A stretch of 64,000 bases of DNA from Pseudodesulfovibrio sp. zrk46 (GTDB lineage Bacteria > Desulfobacterota > Desulfovibrionia > Desulfovibrionales > Desulfovibrionaceae): assembly GCF_012516435.1 (NCBI RefSeq), contig NZ_CP051216.1:3223669-3287668 (forward strand). The letters are read 5' to 3'. Each line of letters begins with the position of its first letter. Positions within the stretch are counted from its first letter, which is position 1. A program made the translations under genes and the position numbers. Below, piece after piece: positions 2,177 through 10,170 of this stretch. The notes under the pieces are model-generated. The model was not told where the DNA came from and made no database searches. It was given only the letters and a program-made list of their open reading frames with translations.

Positions 2177-3382
2177 TTAGCTCAGATTGAAGGGCTTTAA
2201 TACTCTATCCAAGACCCCTTGCAGTTTGGAAATAGCAACGCCGTAATTGGTGACTGGCACTCCCCGACGATTACATTCTTTGATTCTTCGTAGCATTTCC
2301 GTACGGTTGATCATGCAGGCTCCACAGTGGATTGCGAGTTTAAATCTCTCTAAGTCTTCTGGGAAATCATGGCCTGAGTAGAATTCGAAATTCAATTCTT
2401 TGCCTGTGTACTGGGATAGCCACCGTGGGATTTTTACTCGGCCAATATCATCGGCTACGGCATGATGAGAACATGCTTCACCCATTAGGATAGTGTCACC
2501 ATCTTCCAATTGGTCAATGGCTTCAGCGCCTTCTACCAATCGCGTAAGATCACCCTTATAGCGGGCAAACAACGTGGAGAAAGTTGTGAGTGGGATGTCC
2601 TCAGGTACATCTCCAGCAACACTCATGACGACTTGGGAGTCTGTAATGACTAATGCTGGCTTGCGGTGAAGATTAGAAATGGCCTCGTCGATCTCACGCT
2701 CTTTGACCGTGATACCAATGGCGTCACAGTCAAGAATTTCACGGAGTACCTGCACCTGAGGTAGGATAAGGCGTCCCTTCGGGGCAGCCAAGTCGATGGG
2801 AACTACACAGACAACCCAGTCCCCTTCGCTAATAAGATCTCCAGCAAGAACAGGGGCGCGTTTGATCTCGGGGGGGGCGATGTCAATGATAGCTTCTTTT
2901 ACGTCATTTACTCCCACCAACTCTTTTGCTGATGTAATAATGTGACGGATGCCGTTTTCTGTGCAAAAGGCAATATCTGAGGCCTTGGGGGATGTTAAAT
3001 CGCATTTGTTGAAGACAATGAGGAAAGGGATTTCCAGTTCATAGATTTCGTTGATTATATCTTTCTCATAGTCGGTTATACCTTGGTCTGAGACAACGAC
3101 TACAGCTACATCGGAACGCCAGAGTATTCGGCGGGTAGCTTTAATGCGTAATTCACCCAACTCTCCCTCGTCATCAAGCCCAGCCGTATCGTAAAAAGTG
3201 ACTGGACCTAGAGGCAGTAGCTCGTACTGCTTTGCAACAGGGTCAGTGGTAGTGCCAGGATGGTCAGATACAATGGCAATTTCTTGTTCGGTGATGGCGT
3301 TTATTAGCGAGGATTTGCCTGCGTTGCGTCGACCGGCTAGTGCGATGACAAGACGCACACCTCGAGGGGCTTTGGTGCTCAT
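2177..3382 (-). CDS. hydF: [FeFe]-hydrogenase maturation GTPase HydF
   Basis: HydF is the scaffold GTPase on which the 2Fe subcluster of the H-cluster is assembled before transfer to apo-HydA. The 401-aa protein has a TrmE/Era-like GTPase domain with P-loop GRRNAGKS (17-24), DTAGL and the NKCD base-recognition motif. The C-terminal part carries the FeS ligands: CSHH, then after about 50 residues the HCGAC pair, matching the CxHx(46-53)CxxC pattern of HydF. It is the last gene of the maturation operon; its ATG shares one base with the hydE stop. It ends facing the two-component operon. Confidence 0.97.
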   Translation of the reverse strand: MSTKAPRGVRLVIALAGRRNAGKSSLINAITEQEIAIVSDHPGTTTDPVAKQYELLPLGPVTFYDTAGLDDEGELGELRIKATRRILWRSDVAVVVVSDQGITDYEKDIINEIYELEIPFLIVFNKCDLTSPKASDIAFCTENGIRHIITSAKELVGVNDVKEAIIDIAPPEIKRAPVLAGDLISEGDWVVCVVPIDLAAPKGRLILPQVQVLREILDCDAIGITVKEREIDEAISNLHRKPALVITDSQVVMSVAGDVPEDIPLTTFSTLFARYKGDLTRLVEGAEAIDQLEDGDTILMGEACSHHAVADDIGRVKIPRWLSQYTGKELNFEFYSGHDFPEDLERFKLAIHCGACMINRTEMLRRIKECNRRGVPVTNYGVAISKLQGVLDRVLKPFNLS

Positions 3383-4380
3383 TATTTGATCCTTTTGGAA
3401 AATCCTTTGGAGGATGACGGCACAAGGCCAAGTGATTCAATCGTATTGCGTGCGGCGGCGAGCGATGCCGTCGCTGTAGCATGTGTTCGGTTTTTACCTG
3501 GGTAAATGTTATAGTCTCGGCGATGCTCCTCAGGTGTCATGGAGGGCATTAATACATTACAACCACGTAACAGAGCTTCTCCTTGGCTTTCATGACGTAA
3601 TGCTGTCAAAGCTGAAGTTGCTGGTATATTAGAGCCAGGATTTAGCAGGCGTAGCAGAGCGGTTACACGGTGAGATAGGCTGATGCTTCCAGGATTATCG
3701 TTGGCGAACGGTGTCAGCGGATTCGGAACGAAGGGGCCAGCCGCAATCATGTCCAAATCGAGATTTGATAAAAAGAGAATATCGTTCAACGTGGTTTCTA
3801 CGTTCATGCCTGGGAGGCCTACGATAATACCGGAGCCCACTTCATACCCCTGCTTGCGTAAGGCATCCACTCGCTCCAGCCGTTGAGAAAAGGATTCGCC
3901 CATACGATATTGAGCGTAAAGATCAGAGTCCGTGGTTTCTAGTTTCACCAAGCAGCGATCAGCGCCACAATCTTTCCAATAAGCGTATTCGTCTATCCCT
4001 CGATCCCCCACGGATAGAGTAATGGCGACATCGTGGCGCTCTCGAATTCTTTTAACCAATTCACCAATATCCTCGGTCGTGTATCGAAAATCGTCACCGG
4101 ATTGCAAAACAATGGTTCCCACTTCGTTTTGCGTTGCGATTTCTGCCGCGTCCAACATGGTCTCAATAGGCATGCGGTAGCGGGCGACTTCTTTGTTTGG
4201 TGAACGTAATCCACAATATTGGCAACGTTTATTGCAATGGTTAGAAAATTCGATGACAGCACGGATGAATATGTCGTTACCGAAGACACGTTTCTTCTCA
4301 GCGGCAGCTAGAGCGAAAAGTGCCTCATCGTTTCGGCCTTCAAGATATGCCTGAATATCATTGCGGCTTAAATGATGCAT
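3382..4380 (-). CDS. hydE: [FeFe]-hydrogenase maturation radical SAM enzyme HydE
   Basis: HydE is the radical SAM enzyme that processes the HydG-derived Fe(CO)2(CN)-cysteine synthon on the way to the diiron subcluster. The 332-aa protein has the radical SAM cluster motif CNKRCQYC (Cys49, Cys53, Cys56) followed by GLRSPN. A GSGIIVGLPG-type segment and a BATS-like C-terminal region follow. It overlaps the upstream 194-aa gene by 13 bases and hydF by 1 base, so all are translated from one mRNA. Biotin synthase and PylB are related folds, but the hydG/hydF context makes HydE the clear call. Confidence 0.96.
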   Translation of the reverse strand: MHHLSRNDIQAYLEGRNDEALFALAAAEKKRVFGNDIFIRAVIEFSNHCNKRCQYCGLRSPNKEVARYRMPIETMLDAAEIATQNEVGTIVLQSGDDFRYTTEDIGELVKRIRERHDVAITLSVGDRGIDEYAYWKDCGADRCLVKLETTDSDLYAQYRMGESFSQRLERVDALRKQGYEVGSGIIVGLPGMNVETTLNDILFLSNLDLDMIAAGPFVPNPLTPFANDNPGSISLSHRVTALLRLLNPGSNIPATSALTALRHESQGEALLRGCNVLMPSMTPEEHRRDYNIYPGKNRTHATATASLAAARNTIESLGLVPSSSKGFSKRIK

Positions 4381-4952
4381 TGATGCACCTCACACTTCAT
4401 TGCGTTGAGGCATTCGCAGATGAGTCTGTATGCTGCGACTTCGGTATCTGTGGCATATGTAGGCGTAACTCCTTGTTGCCTCCACTCAAGCAAAGCTTTC
4501 ACATCGGTCTGAACACATCCCCAAAAACCTTGTGGAGCGAAGATGCCGCAATGGGCGTATTGTCCGAAGACGATTGTATTGTCCACTATGATAATGGGCT
4601 GGCATGGCAACGCAGTCAGGGGGTGAACGAATACTTTTGTCGGACAGGCTATCTGCAGCTTTTCTAAAAAGTCATCTGAGGCTTGGATTTCTCTTAATTT
4701 CTGTTCTTCCGACGCTCCATTTCTCAATGTATTGAGAAAATCTGATCGCCAAGACTGTGTACCGCTTTTAGTTAAAGCTATGATATCGAGGCGTGCGAAG
4801 GAATCTTTACTTAAAGCTTTGGCCAAAGCTCTTCTGTGAGGCTTTGATTGAGCGAAGGGGCCATAAATAGCAGCATGCAATATGATGCGTTTTGATGCGT
4901 TACCGAATAGTTCCGGCAGATTGAAGGAAGCAAGTCCTGCGGTGAGTTTCAT
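4368..4952 (-). CDS. Uncharacterised protein embedded in the hydrogenase maturation operon
   Basis: I do not recognise this 194-aa protein. It overlaps aspA by one base and hydE by 13 bases, so it is part of the maturation transcript. It looks soluble with no signal peptide. It has about eight cysteines, mostly in the second half (CPTK, ALPC, HCG, WGC, CEC, CEVHQC), including a C-terminal group that could bind metal or FeS. A segment with VDNTIVFGQYAHCG faintly recalls the end of phospholipase-D-like folds, but no HKD motif is present. Position suggests an accessory role in H-cluster assembly or in using AspA-derived ammonium; that is inference only. Confidence 0.85.
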   Translation of the reverse strand: MKLTAGLASFNLPELFGNASKRIILHAAIYGPFAQSKPHRRALAKALSKDSFARLDIIALTKSGTQSWRSDFLNTLRNGASEEQKLREIQASDDFLEKLQIACPTKVFVHPLTALPCQPIIIVDNTIVFGQYAHCGIFAPQGFWGCVQTDVKALLEWRQQGVTPTYATDTEVAAYRLICECLNAMKCEVHQCII

Positions 4953-6385
4953 TAGTTGCTTATCTCGTCAAATTCATTAGGCGTGAAGCCAAGTTTGCAA
5001 AGGCGTTTAGGTGACAGTAGTTCATCGATAATTTCTTGGGAGGCGATGCCCTGATGAACTATTTCTTCGCGGATTGTGCGTTGGGATTTATGAGCGGTTG
5101 CAACTAACTCTTCTACCTTGGCATATCCAAGAACAGGTACGAGAACTGTTGCTAAGGTATTACTTCTTTCAACATGATTGAGACAGCGCATTCGGTTCGC
5201 TGTGATCCCAGGGATGCAGTGGGTAGATATACCTTCTGTGGCATTAATGAGTAAGGTGAGCGATTCCAGCATGGTATGCGCTAAAAGGGGCATGAGATGG
5301 TTGAGTTCCAATTGCCCCATACCAGCAGCAATGGCTATTGTTTGATCATTTCCCATTACCTGAAGGGATGCTTGAGTGACGGCTTCAGGCATAACCGGAT
5401 TCACTTTACCTGCCATAATTGAAGAGCCTGTTTGAAGAGGGGGCAGGGTTATTTCACCGAAACCGGTGGCTGGACCACTAGAAAGGAGTCGAAGATCGGA
5501 AGTGAGTTTCATCAAATTGGACGCGTATGCCTTGAGCATGCCTGAGACTTCTACCAGAGAGTCCATGTTTTGAGTTGCATCAACTAAGTTCTCTGCGCGA
5601 GAAACGGGCAAACCACAGATGTGGCGCAAATTCTCTGTGACTTTGAGGACGTAGTCGCGTGGAGCGCCAAGCCCGGTGCCTATAGCTGTGCCACCGAGAT
5701 TGACTTTTTTGATGCGTTCTCTGCTCTTGAATATACGCCAACGGTCTCGGGCAGCCCCGTCTGCAAATGCGCCGAAGGTCATGCCCAAAGTCATGGGAAC
5801 AGCGTCTGTTAGTTCTGTACGTCCTACTTTCGTCACGTCGCGGAACTCGTGCTCCTTGGCTTGGAGAACTTCTTGGAGTTTGGAAACTTTGCTTTCCAAT
5901 TCCGTGAGGAGAGATAGGCACGCAACTTTCAAAGCCGTGGGGTACACGTCATTCGTAGATTGGTGCATGTTAACATGATGGATGGGGTGGACCTTTTCGT
6001 ATTCTCCGAGGTTGCCGCCGAGAATCTCTTCTGCCCGATTGGCGATAACCTCATTGAAGTTCATATTGGTGGATGTCCCTGCGCCACCCTGGAAAGCGTC
6101 TACTACAATTTGATCATGCAGTTTTCCGTTTTCCATTTCGCGACAGGCCTTAATAATGGCATTGCTCTCGGCATCATTCAGATAACCTAGGGAAGAGTTA
6201 GTCGCTGCGCATGCTTGTTTTACTTGCGCGAATGCTTTGATGAATGGGAAGCGGAGGCTATATCCCGAAAAGGGAAAGTTTCGTATCGCCCGCAGGGTGT
6301 GAATACCGAAGTAAGACCCTGCGGGGATATCCAATTCGCCTAGCGCGTCGCGTTCGCGGCGTGTGTGGGCGTCGTGTGTAGTCAT
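4952..6385 (-). CDS. aspA: Aspartate ammonia-lyase in the hydrogenase maturation operon
   Basis: Aspartase converts L-aspartate to fumarate and ammonium. The 477-aa length fits the family. The fumarase/aspartase signature is present as GSSIMAGKVNPVMPE, with Ala-Gly where aspartases often have Pro-Ala. Substrate-loop motifs include TSTNMNFNEVIANRA and HVNMHQSTNDVYPTA. The gene lies between hydG (9 bases upstream) and the unknown 194-aa gene (1-base overlap), so it is co-expressed with the maturases. Aspartase genes recur beside hyd genes in other bacteria, and free ammonium could supply the bridgehead nitrogen of the azadithiolate ligand. A housekeeping fumarate/ammonium role is the alternative. 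Confidence 0.94.
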   Translation of the reverse strand: MTTHDAHTRRERDALGELDIPAGSYFGIHTLRAIRNFPFSGYSLRFPFIKAFAQVKQACAATNSSLGYLNDAESNAIIKACREMENGKLHDQIVVDAFQGGAGTSTNMNFNEVIANRAEEILGGNLGEYEKVHPIHHVNMHQSTNDVYPTALKVACLSLLTELESKVSKLQEVLQAKEHEFRDVTKVGRTELTDAVPMTLGMTFGAFADGAARDRWRIFKSRERIKKVNLGGTAIGTGLGAPRDYVLKVTENLRHICGLPVSRAENLVDATQNMDSLVEVSGMLKAYASNLMKLTSDLRLLSSGPATGFGEITLPPLQTGSSIMAGKVNPVMPEAVTQASLQVMGNDQTIAIAAGMGQLELNHLMPLLAHTMLESLTLLINATEGISTHCIPGITANRMRCLNHVERSNTLATVLVPVLGYAKVEELVATAHKSQRTIREEIVHQGIASQEIIDELLSPKRLCKLGFTPNEFDEISN

Positions 6386-6394
6386 GGTCTTGTC

Positions 6395-7819
6395 CTAGAT
6401 GTACAAGTCTCGTTCGCCTGCTTCCATTCGGGCTAGACGGTCCATGAGTATCTTTTTTCTCTTTGGATCGTCGTAGGCCTCTACTTCGCGTTGAATCAGG
6501 GCGTTACCTGCTGCCTTTGTTTCATCGGATGCGTAGTCTTCAAGGTATTCCTTGAAGGTTAATAATCCGTTAGGAAGACAAAACTCCTGAATGAAACCCG
6601 TCTTAGCAAGTTCCATGAAGTGTTCGCCAGTGCGCCCCATACGGTAGCAAGCAGTACACCAGGAAGGCACGTAGCCGTGTTCCCCCGCGATAGAGAGAAT
6701 GATCTCGTCAAGACTACGGTTGTCACCGATACAGAACTGCTGAACATCAGGACGATCGTACTCTGGATCGCTGTATGCACCTGGATATGTGCGAGATCCA
6801 GCCGAGATCTGAGAAACGCCCACCTCAATGAGTTCGCGGCGAAATTCTGCATTTTCGCGGGTGGTCAGAATAAGTCCAGTGTATGGTACCGCTATACGTA
6901 GGGCAGCGACGATTTTTTTGAAGTCGTGCTTGGAGGTCGGGTGGGGTGGATTAAAAGCAATTTCTGCTCCAAGCGCCGGTTCAAGGCGTGGGAAAGAAAT
7001 CGTGTGGGGACCGACGCCGTAATCGCGTTCCAATTGTTTTGCGTGATGGAGCAGGCCGAGGACCTCAAAGGTCGGATCATAAAGTCCGAAGAGTGCTCCC
7101 ATGCCAACGTCATCAATGCCTGCCTCCATGGCTCGATGCATTGCGTGGAGACGCCACAGGTAATCCGTTTTGCGACCGCCCGTGTGCAGCTTTTCGTATG
7201 TCTCACGATGGTATGTTTCGTGAAAACACTGATAGGTGCCAATACCTACTTCGTGGATTTTGCGGAATCCTGCTACGTCCAGCGGTGCACAGTTGATGTT
7301 AACCCTTCGAATTTCACCACTTTTGTCAGTGGTGACAGAGTATACGTCACGTACAGTCTGAGCAATCCAGTCTGCATCGTACTTGGGGTGTTCACCGTAT
7401 ACGAGCAGAAGGCGCTTATGTCCTTGATTCTCTAGTACCTCGACTTCGGCGCGGATTTCATCACTGTTGAGTGTGCGGCGTTCCAAATCCCGATTCTTCG
7501 CATTGAAACCGCAGTATTCACATTGGTTGCCACATTCATTTGTAATATAAAGAGGGGCAAAAAGAACGAGTCGGTTGCCATAGATGCCCTGTTTGATGGA
7601 CATGGCCGTCTCAAAAATCGCTTCATCAAGTTCGGGGTCGGTATTCTTGAGCAGAACGGCAGTTTCAAAAGGAGAAAGGCCGTTACGTTCAAGACCTTTG
7701 TTGAGAACTTCGCGAACTAGGTTAGGGCTGGGGTTTTCAGCCTTGGCAATCTCTTCGAAAATCAATTCTTCATCAATGAAATTTGTCAGTCCCTGACTAA
7801 GTGTGCTGTTTTTCTTCAT
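6395..7819 (-). CDS. hydG: [FeFe]-hydrogenase maturation radical SAM tyrosine lyase HydG
   Basis: HydG cleaves L-tyrosine to p-cresol and dehydroglycine, and makes the CO and CN ligands as an Fe(CO)2(CN)-cysteine synthon. The 474-aa protein has the N-terminal radical SAM motif CGNQCEYC (Cys96, Cys100, Cys103). At the C terminus is the auxiliary-cluster motif CTAC followed 22 residues later by another Cys (CX2CX22C). That second motif distinguishes HydG from its relative ThiH. The gene starts 11 bases after the TM1266-like gene and precedes aspA. Confidence 0.97.
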   Translation of the reverse strand: MKKNSTLSQGLTNFIDEELIFEEIAKAENPSPNLVREVLNKGLERNGLSPFETAVLLKNTDPELDEAIFETAMSIKQGIYGNRLVLFAPLYITNECGNQCEYCGFNAKNRDLERRTLNSDEIRAEVEVLENQGHKRLLLVYGEHPKYDADWIAQTVRDVYSVTTDKSGEIRRVNINCAPLDVAGFRKIHEVGIGTYQCFHETYHRETYEKLHTGGRKTDYLWRLHAMHRAMEAGIDDVGMGALFGLYDPTFEVLGLLHHAKQLERDYGVGPHTISFPRLEPALGAEIAFNPPHPTSKHDFKKIVAALRIAVPYTGLILTTRENAEFRRELIEVGVSQISAGSRTYPGAYSDPEYDRPDVQQFCIGDNRSLDEIILSIAGEHGYVPSWCTACYRMGRTGEHFMELAKTGFIQEFCLPNGLLTFKEYLEDYASDETKAAGNALIQREVEAYDDPKRKKILMDRLARMEAGERDLYI

Positions 7820-7830
7820 GGTTGTCTCCG

Positions 7831-8073
7831 TTAAGCAAGAAGTGATTTTACTTTGACGCCGTTAAGCATACCGAGTTTGCCAGTCATTGCGCCGAGTTCG
7901 TCAGTCGTAGCTTCAATGATCAGACTAATGCAGTTGACCTCTTTTTCACGGAAAGGGATGCCCATTCTGCCAACTACAATATCAGAGTTCTCACCGAGAA
8001 TTTTATTGACCGCTGGTGCGGATTCGTTCCTGTCTTGAATGAAGATGCCGATGATGCCGAGTCGTTTGTCCAT
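7831..8073 (-). CDS. TM1266-type iron-only hydrogenase system regulator
   Basis: This 80-aa protein matches the small 'iron-only hydrogenase system regulator' family (TM1266 type), which has an ACT/NikR-C-like ferredoxin fold. Visible markers are LGIIGIFIQDR, SDIVVGRMGIP and ISLIIEATTDELGAMTGKLGMLNGVKVKSLL. The frame stays open upstream to 8130, but the ATG at 8073 has a proper AAAGGG ribosome site eight bases before it, and family members begin with this MDKRLGIIGI-like segment. It is the first gene of the maturation operon, directly after the leader terminator. It has no DNA-binding domain, so it more likely binds a ligand or partner protein than acts as a repressor. Confidence 0.9.
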   Translation of the reverse strand: MDKRLGIIGIFIQDRNESAPAVNKILGENSDIVVGRMGIPFREKEVNCISLIIEATTDELGAMTGKLGMLNGVKVKSLLA

Positions 8074-8115
8074 GCGTTTTCCCTTTATTTGGTCGAAGGT
8101 CCATAAAGATGAAAA

Positions 8116-8140
8116 AGCCCGGGGTAGCACTCCCCGGGCT
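8116..8140 (-). terminator. Intrinsic terminator in the maturation-operon leader
   Basis: On the minus strand a perfect 9-bp GC-rich stem (AGCCCGGGG with its complement, 7-base loop) is followed by TTTTTC. It lies 38 bases before the TM1266-like start and directly abuts the closing stem of the upstream structured RNA. It therefore looks like the expression platform of a transcription-termination switch, or the end of a separate small RNA. Confidence 0.85.
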
Positions 8141-8285
8141 ATCTACGTGTGGGAACACAAGGCAGGAACCCTCGACAAATGGTGAATCCTGAAAATGCAG
8201 GCTGTCTCAAGCGGGCTTCCACCCTGGGGTTAGGCGAACCCTTCCCGCAGGTAGATAACTCCGAATATACGGAGGTGTTCTGAAG
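8140..8285 (-). ncRNA. Structured leader RNA (candidate riboswitch) of the maturation operon
   Basis: Read on the minus strand, this stretch folds as a multi-branched RNA. A short CTCCG/CGGAG hairpin (8259-8274) precedes a 7-bp closing stem TATCTAC/GTAGATA (8251-8257 with 8140-8146). Inside are an arm GCGGG/CCCGC (8244-8248 with 8211-8215) that holds a GGGTT/AACCC hairpin, an arm GACA/TGTC that holds CCTG/CAGG (8174-8206), and a GTGT/ACAC hairpin (8147-8158). The intrinsic terminator follows at once. I could not match conserved cores of cobalamin, TPP, FMN, SAM, glycine, c-di-GMP or molybdenum-cofactor riboswitches. A stand-alone small RNA is the alternative. Confidence 0.6.
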
Positions 8286-8289
8286 ACTG

Positions 8290-8318
8290 GGTATATGTGA
8301 ATACTTTCGCATGATCAA
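8290..8318 (-). promoter_or_regulatory. Sigma70-type promoter of the maturation operon leader
   Basis: On the minus strand a -35 box TTGATC (8313-8318) and a -10 box TATACC (8290-8295) are separated by exactly 17 bases. Transcription would start near 8283, just before the leader RNA. This supports the minus-strand orientation of the RNA. Confidence 0.6.
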
Positions 8319-8352
8319 GAAAAAAGTAGCATGTTTTGCATACTAAATTAGA

Positions 8353-8381
8353 AAAAGTATCACAAAAGGGGTGATGTACTG
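8353..8381 (-). terminator. Possible terminator after hydAB
   Basis: On the minus strand ATCAC and GTGAT form a short hairpin around CCCCTTTT, extended by flanking GTA/AC pairs, then ACTTTTTC. It lies about 100 bases after the hydB stop. The stem is AT-rich and weak. The rest of 8382-8483 shows no gene or clear signal. Confidence 0.4.
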
Positions 8382-8483
8382 AAATGCTGGGAGATAATGT
8401 GCCGCTAGAAGCGGAGAGGGGGAGAGTCTTCCGGCCCTTGGATCAGAATGGCATCCTTGCCGCAGGTCGGAGTGTATATTTAA

Positions 8484-8822
8484 TTAGAGAGCAAGCTCAA
8501 CGCCCTTGGCCTTGAGTGCTTCCAGCTTCTTGCTGCGATCCACATAGTGGGTGTGCAGAAGATGATGAGACTCATGACCGCAGGGGCCTTCATGCAGGAA
8601 ACCGTCTTTGTGGTCGTAAATTTTCTTGACCATAGGGTTGTCCTGGGACTTGCGAAGCTTGTAGATTTTGGGGTTGGCGTCGGCTGCGTAGACGGACTGT
8701 TGGCGCTGAGCCACAAATTCCATGGCGGCAGCAACTGCCTCTTTGGTGACGTTGAAACCGAGGACGGCATAACCAGCCATCACTGCGCCTGCTTTCAAGA
8801 AGTTACGTCTGTTGAATTTCAT
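8484..8822 (-). CDS. hydB: Periplasmic [FeFe]-hydrogenase small subunit
   Basis: This 112-aa protein is the small subunit of the heterodimeric periplasmic [FeFe]-hydrogenase of Desulfovibrio type. It starts with a twin-arginine signal, RRNFLKAG (Arg5, Arg6), followed by a hydrophobic core (AGYAVLGFNV). The signal should carry the folded HydAB dimer through the Tat pathway. The mature part contains the Fe_hyd_SSU features NPMVKKIYDHKDGFLHEGP and SHHLLHTHYVDR, which wrap around the large subunit. It lies 13 bases after hydA on the same transcript. Confidence 0.97.
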   Translation of the reverse strand: MKFNRRNFLKAGAVMAGYAVLGFNVTKEAVAAAMEFVAQRQQSVYAADANPKIYKLRKSQDNPMVKKIYDHKDGFLHEGPCGHESHHLLHTHYVDRSKKLEALKAKGVELAL

Positions 8823-8835
8823 CTCTCATTCCTCC

Positions 8836-10092
8836 TTAAGCGGTGGGCTTGCGGGTTCTGAAGCGACGGTTGATCTTGGCGACCGTGCTACGGAAGCGGG
8901 AGGCCTGGATTTCCGGATCGAGAGGCTGACCACCACCGTTAACGCAACCGCCAGGGCAGGTCATGATTTCGATAAAGTGGTAGGGAGACTTGCCGGCACG
9001 AACTTCGTCGCACAGCTTTGCTGCGTTCTGCAGGCCACTGGCGACAGCGATTTTCACAGTGCCGAAGTTGGGCACTTCTACGTCAGCAGTCTTGATGCCT
9101 TCATGTGCACGAACAACCTTGATATCTGGGTTTGCAAGTTTGGTGTTGGAGAGTTCCTCGTACGCGAGGCGAAGAGCTGCTTCCATTACGCCGCCGCTAG
9201 TACCAAAGATGGTAGCTGCACCGGTGGATTCACCAAGAACAGGATCAGGATTCTCATCCTTCAGTCCATTGAACTCGATACCGGCCTTCTTGATCATGTA
9301 TGCCAATTCACGAGTGTTGATGGTGGCATCAATGTCGCGATGACCGCTCTGGTTCATCTCAGGACGCAAGCCTTCGTACTTCTTGGCGACGCAAGGCATG
9401 ATGGAGACTGTGTAGATCTTCTTGGCGTCGGTCTTGGTCTCTTTAGCGCCGTAAGTCTTGGCAAGTGTGCCCAGCATAGCCACGGGGGATTTGCAGGTGG
9501 ACAGATTCGGAAGCAGGTCCGGGTAGTAAGACTCAACGAACTTGATCCATCCCGGGCAGCAAGAAGTGAACTGGGGCAGAGGGTGTTTGCCCTTGCCGCC
9601 TTCCTTGACGCGGGTAAGAAGTTCGGTGCCTTCTTCCATGATGGTCACGTCTGCAGCGTACTCGGTGTCCCAGATGTAGTCGAAGCCAAGTTTGCGAAGG
9701 GCTGCGTGCATCTTACCGCCGACATAGGTGCCTGTGGGGGCACCAAAGCATTCGCCCAGACCGTAACGAACGGCTGGAGCAGGCATAGATACCACGACTG
9801 TGTTGGGATCCTTCAGTTTTTCGAAAAGCTCGTCAACATAGGATACGCCTTCGTAGATTGCGCCGACCGGGCAGTTTGCCAGGCACTGACCGCAATTTAC
9901 GCAGGCAGCCGTGTCGATGACTCCGTGGATGTCATCATCATTGATGGGTTGGATTGCCCCGGTGGGACAGGCCGAATTACATTCACCGCAGCCTTCACAC
10001 TTGTCTGCATCGACCTGAACGAAAAAGATCTCGTCCGGATCTACGCCTTTGGGTGCGTTGCTTTGGTAGCTGATGCCTTCGATCTCAAGCAT
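8836..10092 (-). CDS. hydA: Periplasmic [FeFe]-hydrogenase large subunit
   Basis: The 418-aa large subunit catalyses reversible H2 oxidation, normally delivering electrons to periplasmic cytochrome c3. Two [4Fe-4S] ferredoxin motifs lie near the N terminus (CEGCGECNSACP and CVNCGQCLANCP). The H-cluster motifs follow: TSCCPGW, MPCVAKK and MTCPGGCVNGGG. It has no signal peptide of its own and should be co-exported with Tat-bearing HydB. The frame extends to 10167, but the ATG at 10092 has a strong AAGGAGGAAACT ribosome site and begins the usual MLEIEGISY-like sequence. A long open frame on the opposite strand (8812-10119) is a coding shadow. Confidence 0.97.
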   Translation of the reverse strand: MLEIEGISYQSNAPKGVDPDEIFFVQVDADKCEGCGECNSACPTGAIQPINDDDIHGVIDTAACVNCGQCLANCPVGAIYEGVSYVDELFEKLKDPNTVVVSMPAPAVRYGLGECFGAPTGTYVGGKMHAALRKLGFDYIWDTEYAADVTIMEEGTELLTRVKEGGKGKHPLPQFTSCCPGWIKFVESYYPDLLPNLSTCKSPVAMLGTLAKTYGAKETKTDAKKIYTVSIMPCVAKKYEGLRPEMNQSGHRDIDATINTRELAYMIKKAGIEFNGLKDENPDPVLGESTGAATIFGTSGGVMEAALRLAYEELSNTKLANPDIKVVRAHEGIKTADVEVPNFGTVKIAVASGLQNAAKLCDEVRAGKSPYHFIEIMTCPGGCVNGGGQPLDPEIQASRFRSTVAKINRRFRTRKPTA

Positions 10093-10170
10093 AGTTTCCT
10101 CCTTGCTCGGGTTGATTGAAGACTGGCCGATCATAAAAAATATGATTGGCTCTATAACCTCAAACAATAT

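Follow-up and report, generated by a model that had tools for sequence, protein, structure and literature searches.

A conserved RNA core linked in cis to H-cluster assembly genes, and its probable role in a transcription attenuator upstream of the hydrogenase maturation operon of a Pseudodesulfovibrio strain

What does the folded RNA encoded between the hydrogenase structural genes and the H-cluster maturation genes of Pseudodesulfovibrio sp. zrk46 do, and does it act on the genes that follow it? The window analyzed here, a stretch of 64,000 nucleotides from contig NZ_CP051216.1, carries on its minus strand two ORFs that we take to be hydA (8836..10167 as listed; the true start may be internal) and hydB (8484..8822), encoding the large and small subunits of a periplasmic-type [FeFe] hydrogenase. 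Both assignments draw on relatives and that of hydB also on position, with only a weak NCBIfam match. They are followed on the same strand by a gene of the TM1266 family (7831..8073; PF21699, TIGR03959; a relative of PDB 2nzc), annotated as a putative iron-only hydrogenase system regulator, and then by hydG (6395..7819; TIGR03955, 503 bits), an aspA-like ammonia-lyase gene (4952..6385; NF008909), a gene for a protein X (4368..4952), hydE (3382..4380; TIGR03956), and hydF (2177..3382; TIGR03918), the ammonia-lyase, hydE, and hydF matches all being above cut-off. NCBIfam and Pfam thus agree with the names that a preliminary description of this DNA had given to TM1266, hydG, hydE, hydF, and the aspartate ammonia-lyase. 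Protein X, whose gene separates aspA from hydE, has no match among Pfam or NCBIfam models and is conserved in relatives (33-49% by tblastn). The presence of an ammonia-lyase gene near hyd genes is already on record in the part of PMC11736057 available to us.

The same description had placed a promoter, a folded RNA, and a GC-rich terminator in the hydB-TM1266 gap of the minus strand, and this layout was borne out. The leader RNA runs from a conserved AGAACACC at 8281 to the end of the U-run (8112..8281), its 5' end being set by the promoter. The promoter had been called consensus-like; TTGATC (-35, 8313..8318) and TATACC (-10, 8290..8295) are indeed present with a 17-nt spacer, but the site is weaker than claimed, scoring 8/12, and a promoter scan with a threshold of 9/12 returned no site. 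In a scripted search, the best promoter-like site had a 17-nt spacer in 22 of 29 genus leaders, and in 19 of the 29 it read TTGA.. followed after 17 nt by a hexamer starting with TA. Abutting the -35 element on its upstream side is an imperfect inverted repeat, AGTATGCAAAACATGCTACT (8325..8344, minus strand), read from the sequence as a possible regulator site. By eye, AT-rich inverted repeats also lie upstream of the leader -35 in relatives, with AAAAAGTTAT...ATAACTTTTT in many members of the genus.

The stretch from 8113 to 8318 folds with a minimum free energy (MFE) of -72.7 kcal/mol versus a mean of -59.85 for shuffled sequences (z = -2.64), and 2 of 200 dinucleotide shuffles fold as well as the real sequence. 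In the MFE fold, a 5' hairpin P0 (CTCCG/CGGAG, 8259..8274) precedes a multibranched junction (8140..8257) that contains the core discussed below and a P4/P5 arm and is closed, as described, by the 7-bp stem P1 (8257-8251 with 8146-8140). Then comes the intrinsic terminator (8116..8140), a GC-rich 9-bp stem, AGCCCGGGG/CCCCGGGCT, running on the minus strand into a U-run (8112..8116); it was found by a terminator scan, and its upper stem and loop GGAGTG (8133-8128) are conserved in the alignment of relatives. Positions 7500-9500 hold 3 terminator-like sites versus 2.2 expected from shuffles, and that of the leader has much the strongest stem. The reported 38-base distance from terminator to gene is correct, because the last T is at 8112 and the TM1266 ATG at 8073. 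No ATG that might begin a leader peptide was seen by eye within the conserved part of the leader.

The RNA had not been matched to known riboswitch cores, and Rfam 15 gave no match above the gathering score in the window, in a 391-nt region, or in relatives. The window returned 4 tRNAs only. The 391-nt region gave three subthreshold matches at E ≤ 10, of which the best, anti-hemB (19.4 bits versus a cut-off of 49.5), was rejected; this weak match includes the terminator hairpin. There was no match in 13 related loci, nor at E ≤ 1 in locus L184. The T-box model had no match in the window, the 391-nt region, or the 13 related loci, and the 6S model none in the window or the 391-nt region. T-box leaders carry an AGGGUGG-type string just before the terminator. 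The present leader resembles them in having an AGGGUGG string and a terminator before the gene for a tyrosine-using enzyme, but the string is in the leader's 5' half, which is the wrong place, and with no Rfam match we rejected the T-box reading. The preQ1-I riboswitch is an example of control of a terminator by a small aptamer. Its likeness to our leader lies in the short conserved core in a 5' untranslated region (UTR), the pathway genes downstream, and the terminator overlapping a candidate alternative helix; our core differs in having no Rfam match and in being present in an extra copy 3' of the upstream gene. The molybdenum-cofactor riboswitch described for Pelobacter aorA genes (PMC3543383, in the excerpt available) is likewise a case of candidate RNA control of a metal-cofactor enzyme in an anaerobe, but it has no Rfam match in the window or the 13 related loci. 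No description of the core appears in the available portions of the literature searched, including PMC3543383, PMC11109978, PMC8632094, PMC7266159, PMC2864571, PMC10043782, PMC9431212, and PMC11736057. The core is therefore new as far as this search extends; a prior description is possible, one large list of 224 candidates lying outside it.

A BLAST search recovered the leader from 26 of the 36 genus genomes, and a diverged copy in G155 that BLAST had missed brings this to 27. All the genus copies examined sit between hydB and TM1266; two genomes (G104 and G171) have two such loci each, and in G072 the operon is duplicated. A terminator-like leader match at L063 was set aside as chance, as were DNA matches at G046:C3 and G004:C45, in which only a 20-nt stretch is alike. 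A whole-leader model, R1, built from 14 leaders, matched 32 of 288 genomes of the family in 4 of 44 genera, and because its reach was limited to these four genera, the comparison was moved to the core.

The core is a stretch of about 31 nt, CCUGCGGnnAGG..YCUGAnCCnnAGGG, at the heart of the leader. It would form an irregular hairpin in which C1C2 pairs with G34G35, G6G7 with C28C29, and G11-G12-n13 with n22-C23-U24 beneath the apical loop, the internal loops UGC/nnA and nnA/GAn between these stems being conserved. The copy in the window's leader, CCTGCGGGAAGGGTTCGCCTAACCCCAGGG (8222..8251, minus strand), matches the core model R2 with 38.7 bits and falls within the covariation of the core described below. 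A second copy, CCTGCGGCAAGGATGCCATTCTGATCCAAGGG (8435..8466, minus strand; 26.5 bits, E = 0.33 over the whole genome), lies directly 3' of hydB; it was absent from the preliminary description and was found by reading relatives. Common to both is CCUGCGGnnAGG...CUGAnCC..AGGG, the leader copy (8251-8222) being without the G of CUGA. An R2 search of the 4.08-Mb genome gave no third good match, the next having an E value of 9.8. The 3'-hydB element (8430..8471) is enclosed by a closing stem, TCCG (8471-8468)/CGGA (8433-8430), that is supported across 28 elements. In leaders of the window's type, C1 of the core and P1 share a base, and core and P1 therefore cannot form together.

Two core copies are often present in Desulfovibrionaceae. 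This recalls tandem riboswitches, with two copies of one core per intergenic region, but here one core lies in the hydB 3' UTR, upstream of a new promoter, and the other in the leader (for tandem riboswitches, review PMC9481103). Together with the small, hairpin-like nature of the core, the paired copies would also suit a site for an RNA-binding protein, possibly one through which TM1266 regulates its own expression, rather than a metabolite aptamer.

The preliminary description had called for covariance models from related loci, and these revealed compensatory change both in the core and in the P4/P5 arm. In a core alignment fitted to R2 (A6; 76 matches, 75 distinct), one inner-stem pair was GC in 31 rows, AU in 29, GU in 9, UA in 2, and UG in 2, such that all 73 scorable rows (2 have gaps) hold a standard pair, of five types, and none is unpaired; at the pair next to it, 24 of 73 rows are unpaired. 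The whole structure showed 54 two-sided cells versus 13.2 in shuffles (0 of 500 as good), and shifting the partner by one column lowered the paired cells from 96.0% to 76.7 or 64.4%. A separate MAFFT alignment of the core (A5) agreed: the inner-stem pair was AU13, GC11, and UA1, paired in 25 of 25 rows, with 14 two-sided cells versus 5.3 in shuffles (0 of 500 as good). The number of pairs with two-sided changes in A5, 2, was not unusual, since 253 of 500 shuffles had as many. The outer CC:GG and GG:CC pairs are nearly invariant and therefore beyond proof by comparison. In the whole-leader alignment (A3, 14 rows), five pairs change on both sides, all of them in the P4/P5 arm (7 of 500 shuffles reach five), and there were 9 two-sided cells versus 2.9 (0 of 500 shuffles). 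P0, P1, and P3 are nearly invariant in A3, with four pairs of P0 formed in every one of the 14 rows; pairing of P2 is incomplete.

For the stems that close the core, we used duplex energies with permuted partners, because the register slips and fixed-column counts were unsuitable. The sequence of the 3'-hydB closing stem varies between genomes and pairs within each (-6.49 versus -3.31 kcal/mol with permuted partners, 0 of 500, n = 28; 4 of the 32 rows, whose coordinates did not start at CC, were left out). For leader copies the pairing of the flanks was only modestly better than with permuted partners (5 of 500, n = 45), and for copies before the second operon described below the improvement was not significant (35 of 500, n = 9). 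Like a riboswitch, the core is thus a conserved, structured 5' UTR domain with compensatory changes, and the claim of a conserved, covarying RNA tied to the H-cluster maturation operon holds.

The association with these genes extends well beyond the genus. A core pattern with a 2-nt linker occurred in 31 of 288 genomes of the family (7 of 44 genera) and a looser pattern in 7 of 395 genomes of the phylum, both counts being lower bounds. The 2-nt-linker pattern misses the window's own copies. Read backwards, the patterns had no match in either set (0 of 288 and 0 of 395). Six of the looser-pattern matches lie beyond the window's own genome: three (G360, G392, and G485) between hydB and TM1266 and three (L113, L114, and L117) inside other ORFs. 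A core scan of 84,980 species genomes yielded 63 stretches with 68 copies. In 29 of the 63, a TM1266 match starts less than 500 nt downstream on the same strand; among the other 34, in two (L128 and L165) the only hyd gene is hydB, immediately upstream, one (L174) has hydG downstream, and 31 have no hyd gene, 29 of these being called inside an ORF. The ORF test for chance matches has little power, because half of the copies with TM1266 downstream (17 of 34) likewise lie inside a mechanical ORF, and one of the 29, L134, may be a real copy, because it differs by one base from the core of G045, a member of the family, and lies close to the end of a contig. Two intergenic matches have no hyd gene nearby (L162, 451-479, 153 bases before an ORF of 694 aa, and L169, 7963-7993); these may be either chance or another target.

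The hyd-linked set includes Moorella (2), other Bacillota, Lentisphaerae (2), Omnitrophota, Candidatus Desulfofervidaceae (2), Desulfonauticus, Desulfomicrobiaceae, and several Desulfovibrio-like genera, so that the core, again like a riboswitch, is associated with the genes of one pathway across distant bacteria. In a gene-first search, TM1266 was found in 21 of 296 phylum genomes. R2 at E ≤ 1 matched 7 of the 21 loci (3 weakly), and a relaxed form of the core, composed as a regular expression after the sequences had been seen, occurred within 300 nt upstream in 13 of 21 loci (L189 and L194 weakly) versus 1 of 777 control windows. The other 8 TM1266 loci had no form of the core by this relaxed search over 300 nt upstream. 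By eye, three loci without the core (L183, L185, and L187) have the string CTGA.GC..AGATTT..TC.A.G before TM1266, possibly an alternative RNA. We conclude that the core defines a genuine RNA family, linked in cis to H-cluster assembly genes and present in several phyla.

This distribution bears on the suggestion, made at the outset, of a separate small RNA, taken here as acting in trans from a promoter and terminator that only happen to precede the operon. The promoter-like site, the terminator, and the unit fold of the window's leader would fit such an RNA. Intergenic copies of the core, however, adjoin hydAB, TM1266, hydG, or the second operon, save L162 and L169, and in G360, G392, and G485 the core lies approximately 20-70 bases past the end of hydB and 105-130 short of the TM1266 match; because it is so near both genes, there is little room for a separate unit. 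Gene order speaks for cis action. Complements to the core's GGG that are specific to each operon, discussed below, would not be expected of a trans-acting RNA either. The presence of the core in other phyla and before another type of operon weakens the suggestion, and we regard it as very improbable.

The second operon encodes a [NiFe]-hydrogenase large-subunit-like protein (here NiFeL), HydE, a NifH-like protein, and two NifD/K/E-like proteins (loci L109/L111 in G105, L101 in G065, L203-L209, L213, and L214). HydE is above cut-off (261 and 257 versus 254.6), and the two NifD/K/E-like proteins have weak BchN/NifE matches. NiFeL has a strong match in 7 genus genomes and a partial match in G163. 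The core lies upstream of NiFeL in all 7 strong matches; HydE follows in 7 of 7 and NifH in 6 of 7, the seventh stretch ending inside HydE, and in L214 HypE comes next. HydG is above cut-off in 23 of 36 genus genomes. NiFeL was found in 6 of 6 genus genomes that have hydAB, the core, and TM1266 without HydG (partial, at a contig edge, in G163), and together with HydG only in G154 among the 23. G166 has NiFeL without HydG, and 6 genus genomes have neither. The core's presence before a second operon in HydG-free genomes suggests that the CO and CN ligands may be supplied in another way. From gene content, we propose the NiFeL operon as a candidate HydG-free route of H-cluster assembly, in which the Fe-CO-CN unit might be fed by Hyp proteins. 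Activation of a hydrogenase in vitro without HydG is discussed in the available part of PMC9431212. In a different setting, L115 (2408-3742; G360, Candidatus Desulfofervidaceae) has HypE and HypC within the TM1266-aspA-hydF operon of an [FeFe] hydrogenase, and in its relative L127, hydF is followed by HydE and NifH-like genes.

These operons also bear on the protein-site reading. That TM1266 lies close downstream of so many of the scan stretches and is annotated as a putative regulator would suit a TM1266-binding RNA, but the core also stands before operons without TM1266 (NiFeL, and hydG in L174), where TM1266 may be elsewhere in the genome, and 8 of 21 TM1266 loci have no core. We judge a protein site, rather than an aptamer, to be somewhat unlikely.

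How might a core in cis act on the operon? The preliminary description had read the locus as a termination riboswitch or attenuator in which CCCCAGGG could partly pair with the terminator arm as an antiterminator. We searched for Watson-Crick complements of at least 7 bp to the core's GGG and following bases within 150 nt downstream; a scan allowing G-U pairs (at least 7 bp in 18 of 27 leaders and 327 of 702 cross-pairings) was replaced because poly-U swamped the results. In a chosen set of 27 leaders, consisting of L130, L140, L174, and 24 that came from TM1266 loci or from outside the family, such a GGG-to-CCC helix was possible in 8, versus 8 of 702 cross-pairings. In an enlarged set of 42 leaders from outside the window's genus, with 13 of other Desulfovibrionaceae genera and two weak ones added, it was again possible in 8, versus 23 of 1,722 cross-pairings; no GGG helix of 7 bp was found in the other 34. 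Seven of the 8 positive leaders (L120, L166, L137, and L145 from Bacillota, L127 and L142 from Desulfofervidaceae, and L182 from G485) have this CCC within an intrinsic terminator; L130 shares no terminator. The helix would be 12 bp in L182 and 9 bp, spanning more than 100 nt, in L137 and L145. Because L120/L166 and L137/L145, two pairs of related Bacillota, each share a helix sequence, the positives amount to approximately four lineages plus L130. An energy test against shuffled flanks, for 17 copies with a called terminator, gave 5 clear, 4 borderline, and 7 negative cases and 1 unusable; its terminator finder called a terminator in 17 of 76 copies, that of the window not among them.

Because the GGG complements overlap terminators, the core's GGG appears to be contested by the core's CC and the terminator arm. 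In the attenuator that we propose, a folded core, stabilized by an effector, would hold its terminal GGG against the 5' CC, so that the terminator could form and the genes would be off; in an unfolded core, the GGG and following bases would pair with a stretch ending in the terminator CCC, blocking the terminator and letting polymerase read into TM1266-hydEFG. The complements come from comparison of leaders; that the helix forms, that folded means off, and that an effector of a given nature stabilizes the core are what we infer from them. The window's genus differs in having its own leader promoter, a larger junction, and the second core in the hydB 3' UTR. When the window transcript was ended before the 3' arm of the terminator, the fold paired 5' CACCUCC with GGAGUG of the terminator. 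The antiterminator proposed earlier thus goes in the right direction, since a GGG pairing with the terminator is possible in the seven leaders (four from Bacillota and three from other families of the window's phylum); in the window itself a different pairing is predicted, and 5' CACCUCC may take that part. The conserved terminator loop fits this pairing because AGUG is kept in 22 of 29 leaders (manual count); ACACCU is also kept in leaders without a terminator, which the pairing leaves unexplained.

Some copies of the core, by eye, have no terminator nearby (G149, G168, and the relatives g7, g24, and g10). With the copy in the hydB 3' UTR, these would be at home in an element of processive antitermination or transcript stability, the folded core modifying RNA polymerase or protecting an mRNA end; the seven leaders with complements over the terminator have instead the layout of a local attenuator, and we hold such an element to be quite unlikely. 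Overall, conserved covarying RNA, terminator, and linkage to hyd genes partly support the original reading, and the leader is probably a cis-acting, riboswitch-type transcription attenuator for H-cluster assembly genes in which the folded core favors termination.

The simplest candidates for the effector are the end product of the H-cluster assembly pathway or one of its intermediates, or else TM1266 itself. We put forward, tentatively and as the less probable side of the question, that the core is a riboswitch class of its own, sensing an Fe-CO-CN species, a bridging-ligand precursor, or a matching signal. We know of no earlier RNA sensor for hydrogenase cofactor biosynthesis. If this is true, the class would be found in at least four phyla and would also govern a HydG-free operon with a [NiFe]-like subunit, HydE, NifH/D/K-like proteins, and HypE.

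How the supply of maturases is matched to the demand of the [FeFe] hydrogenase is a question to which the available portions of the literature searched hold no answer. The element described here probably decides the transcription of hydrogenase cofactor genes, and its conservation makes this question testable with an RNA of 31 nt; the core's effector would reveal what the cell reads out about H-cluster assembly.
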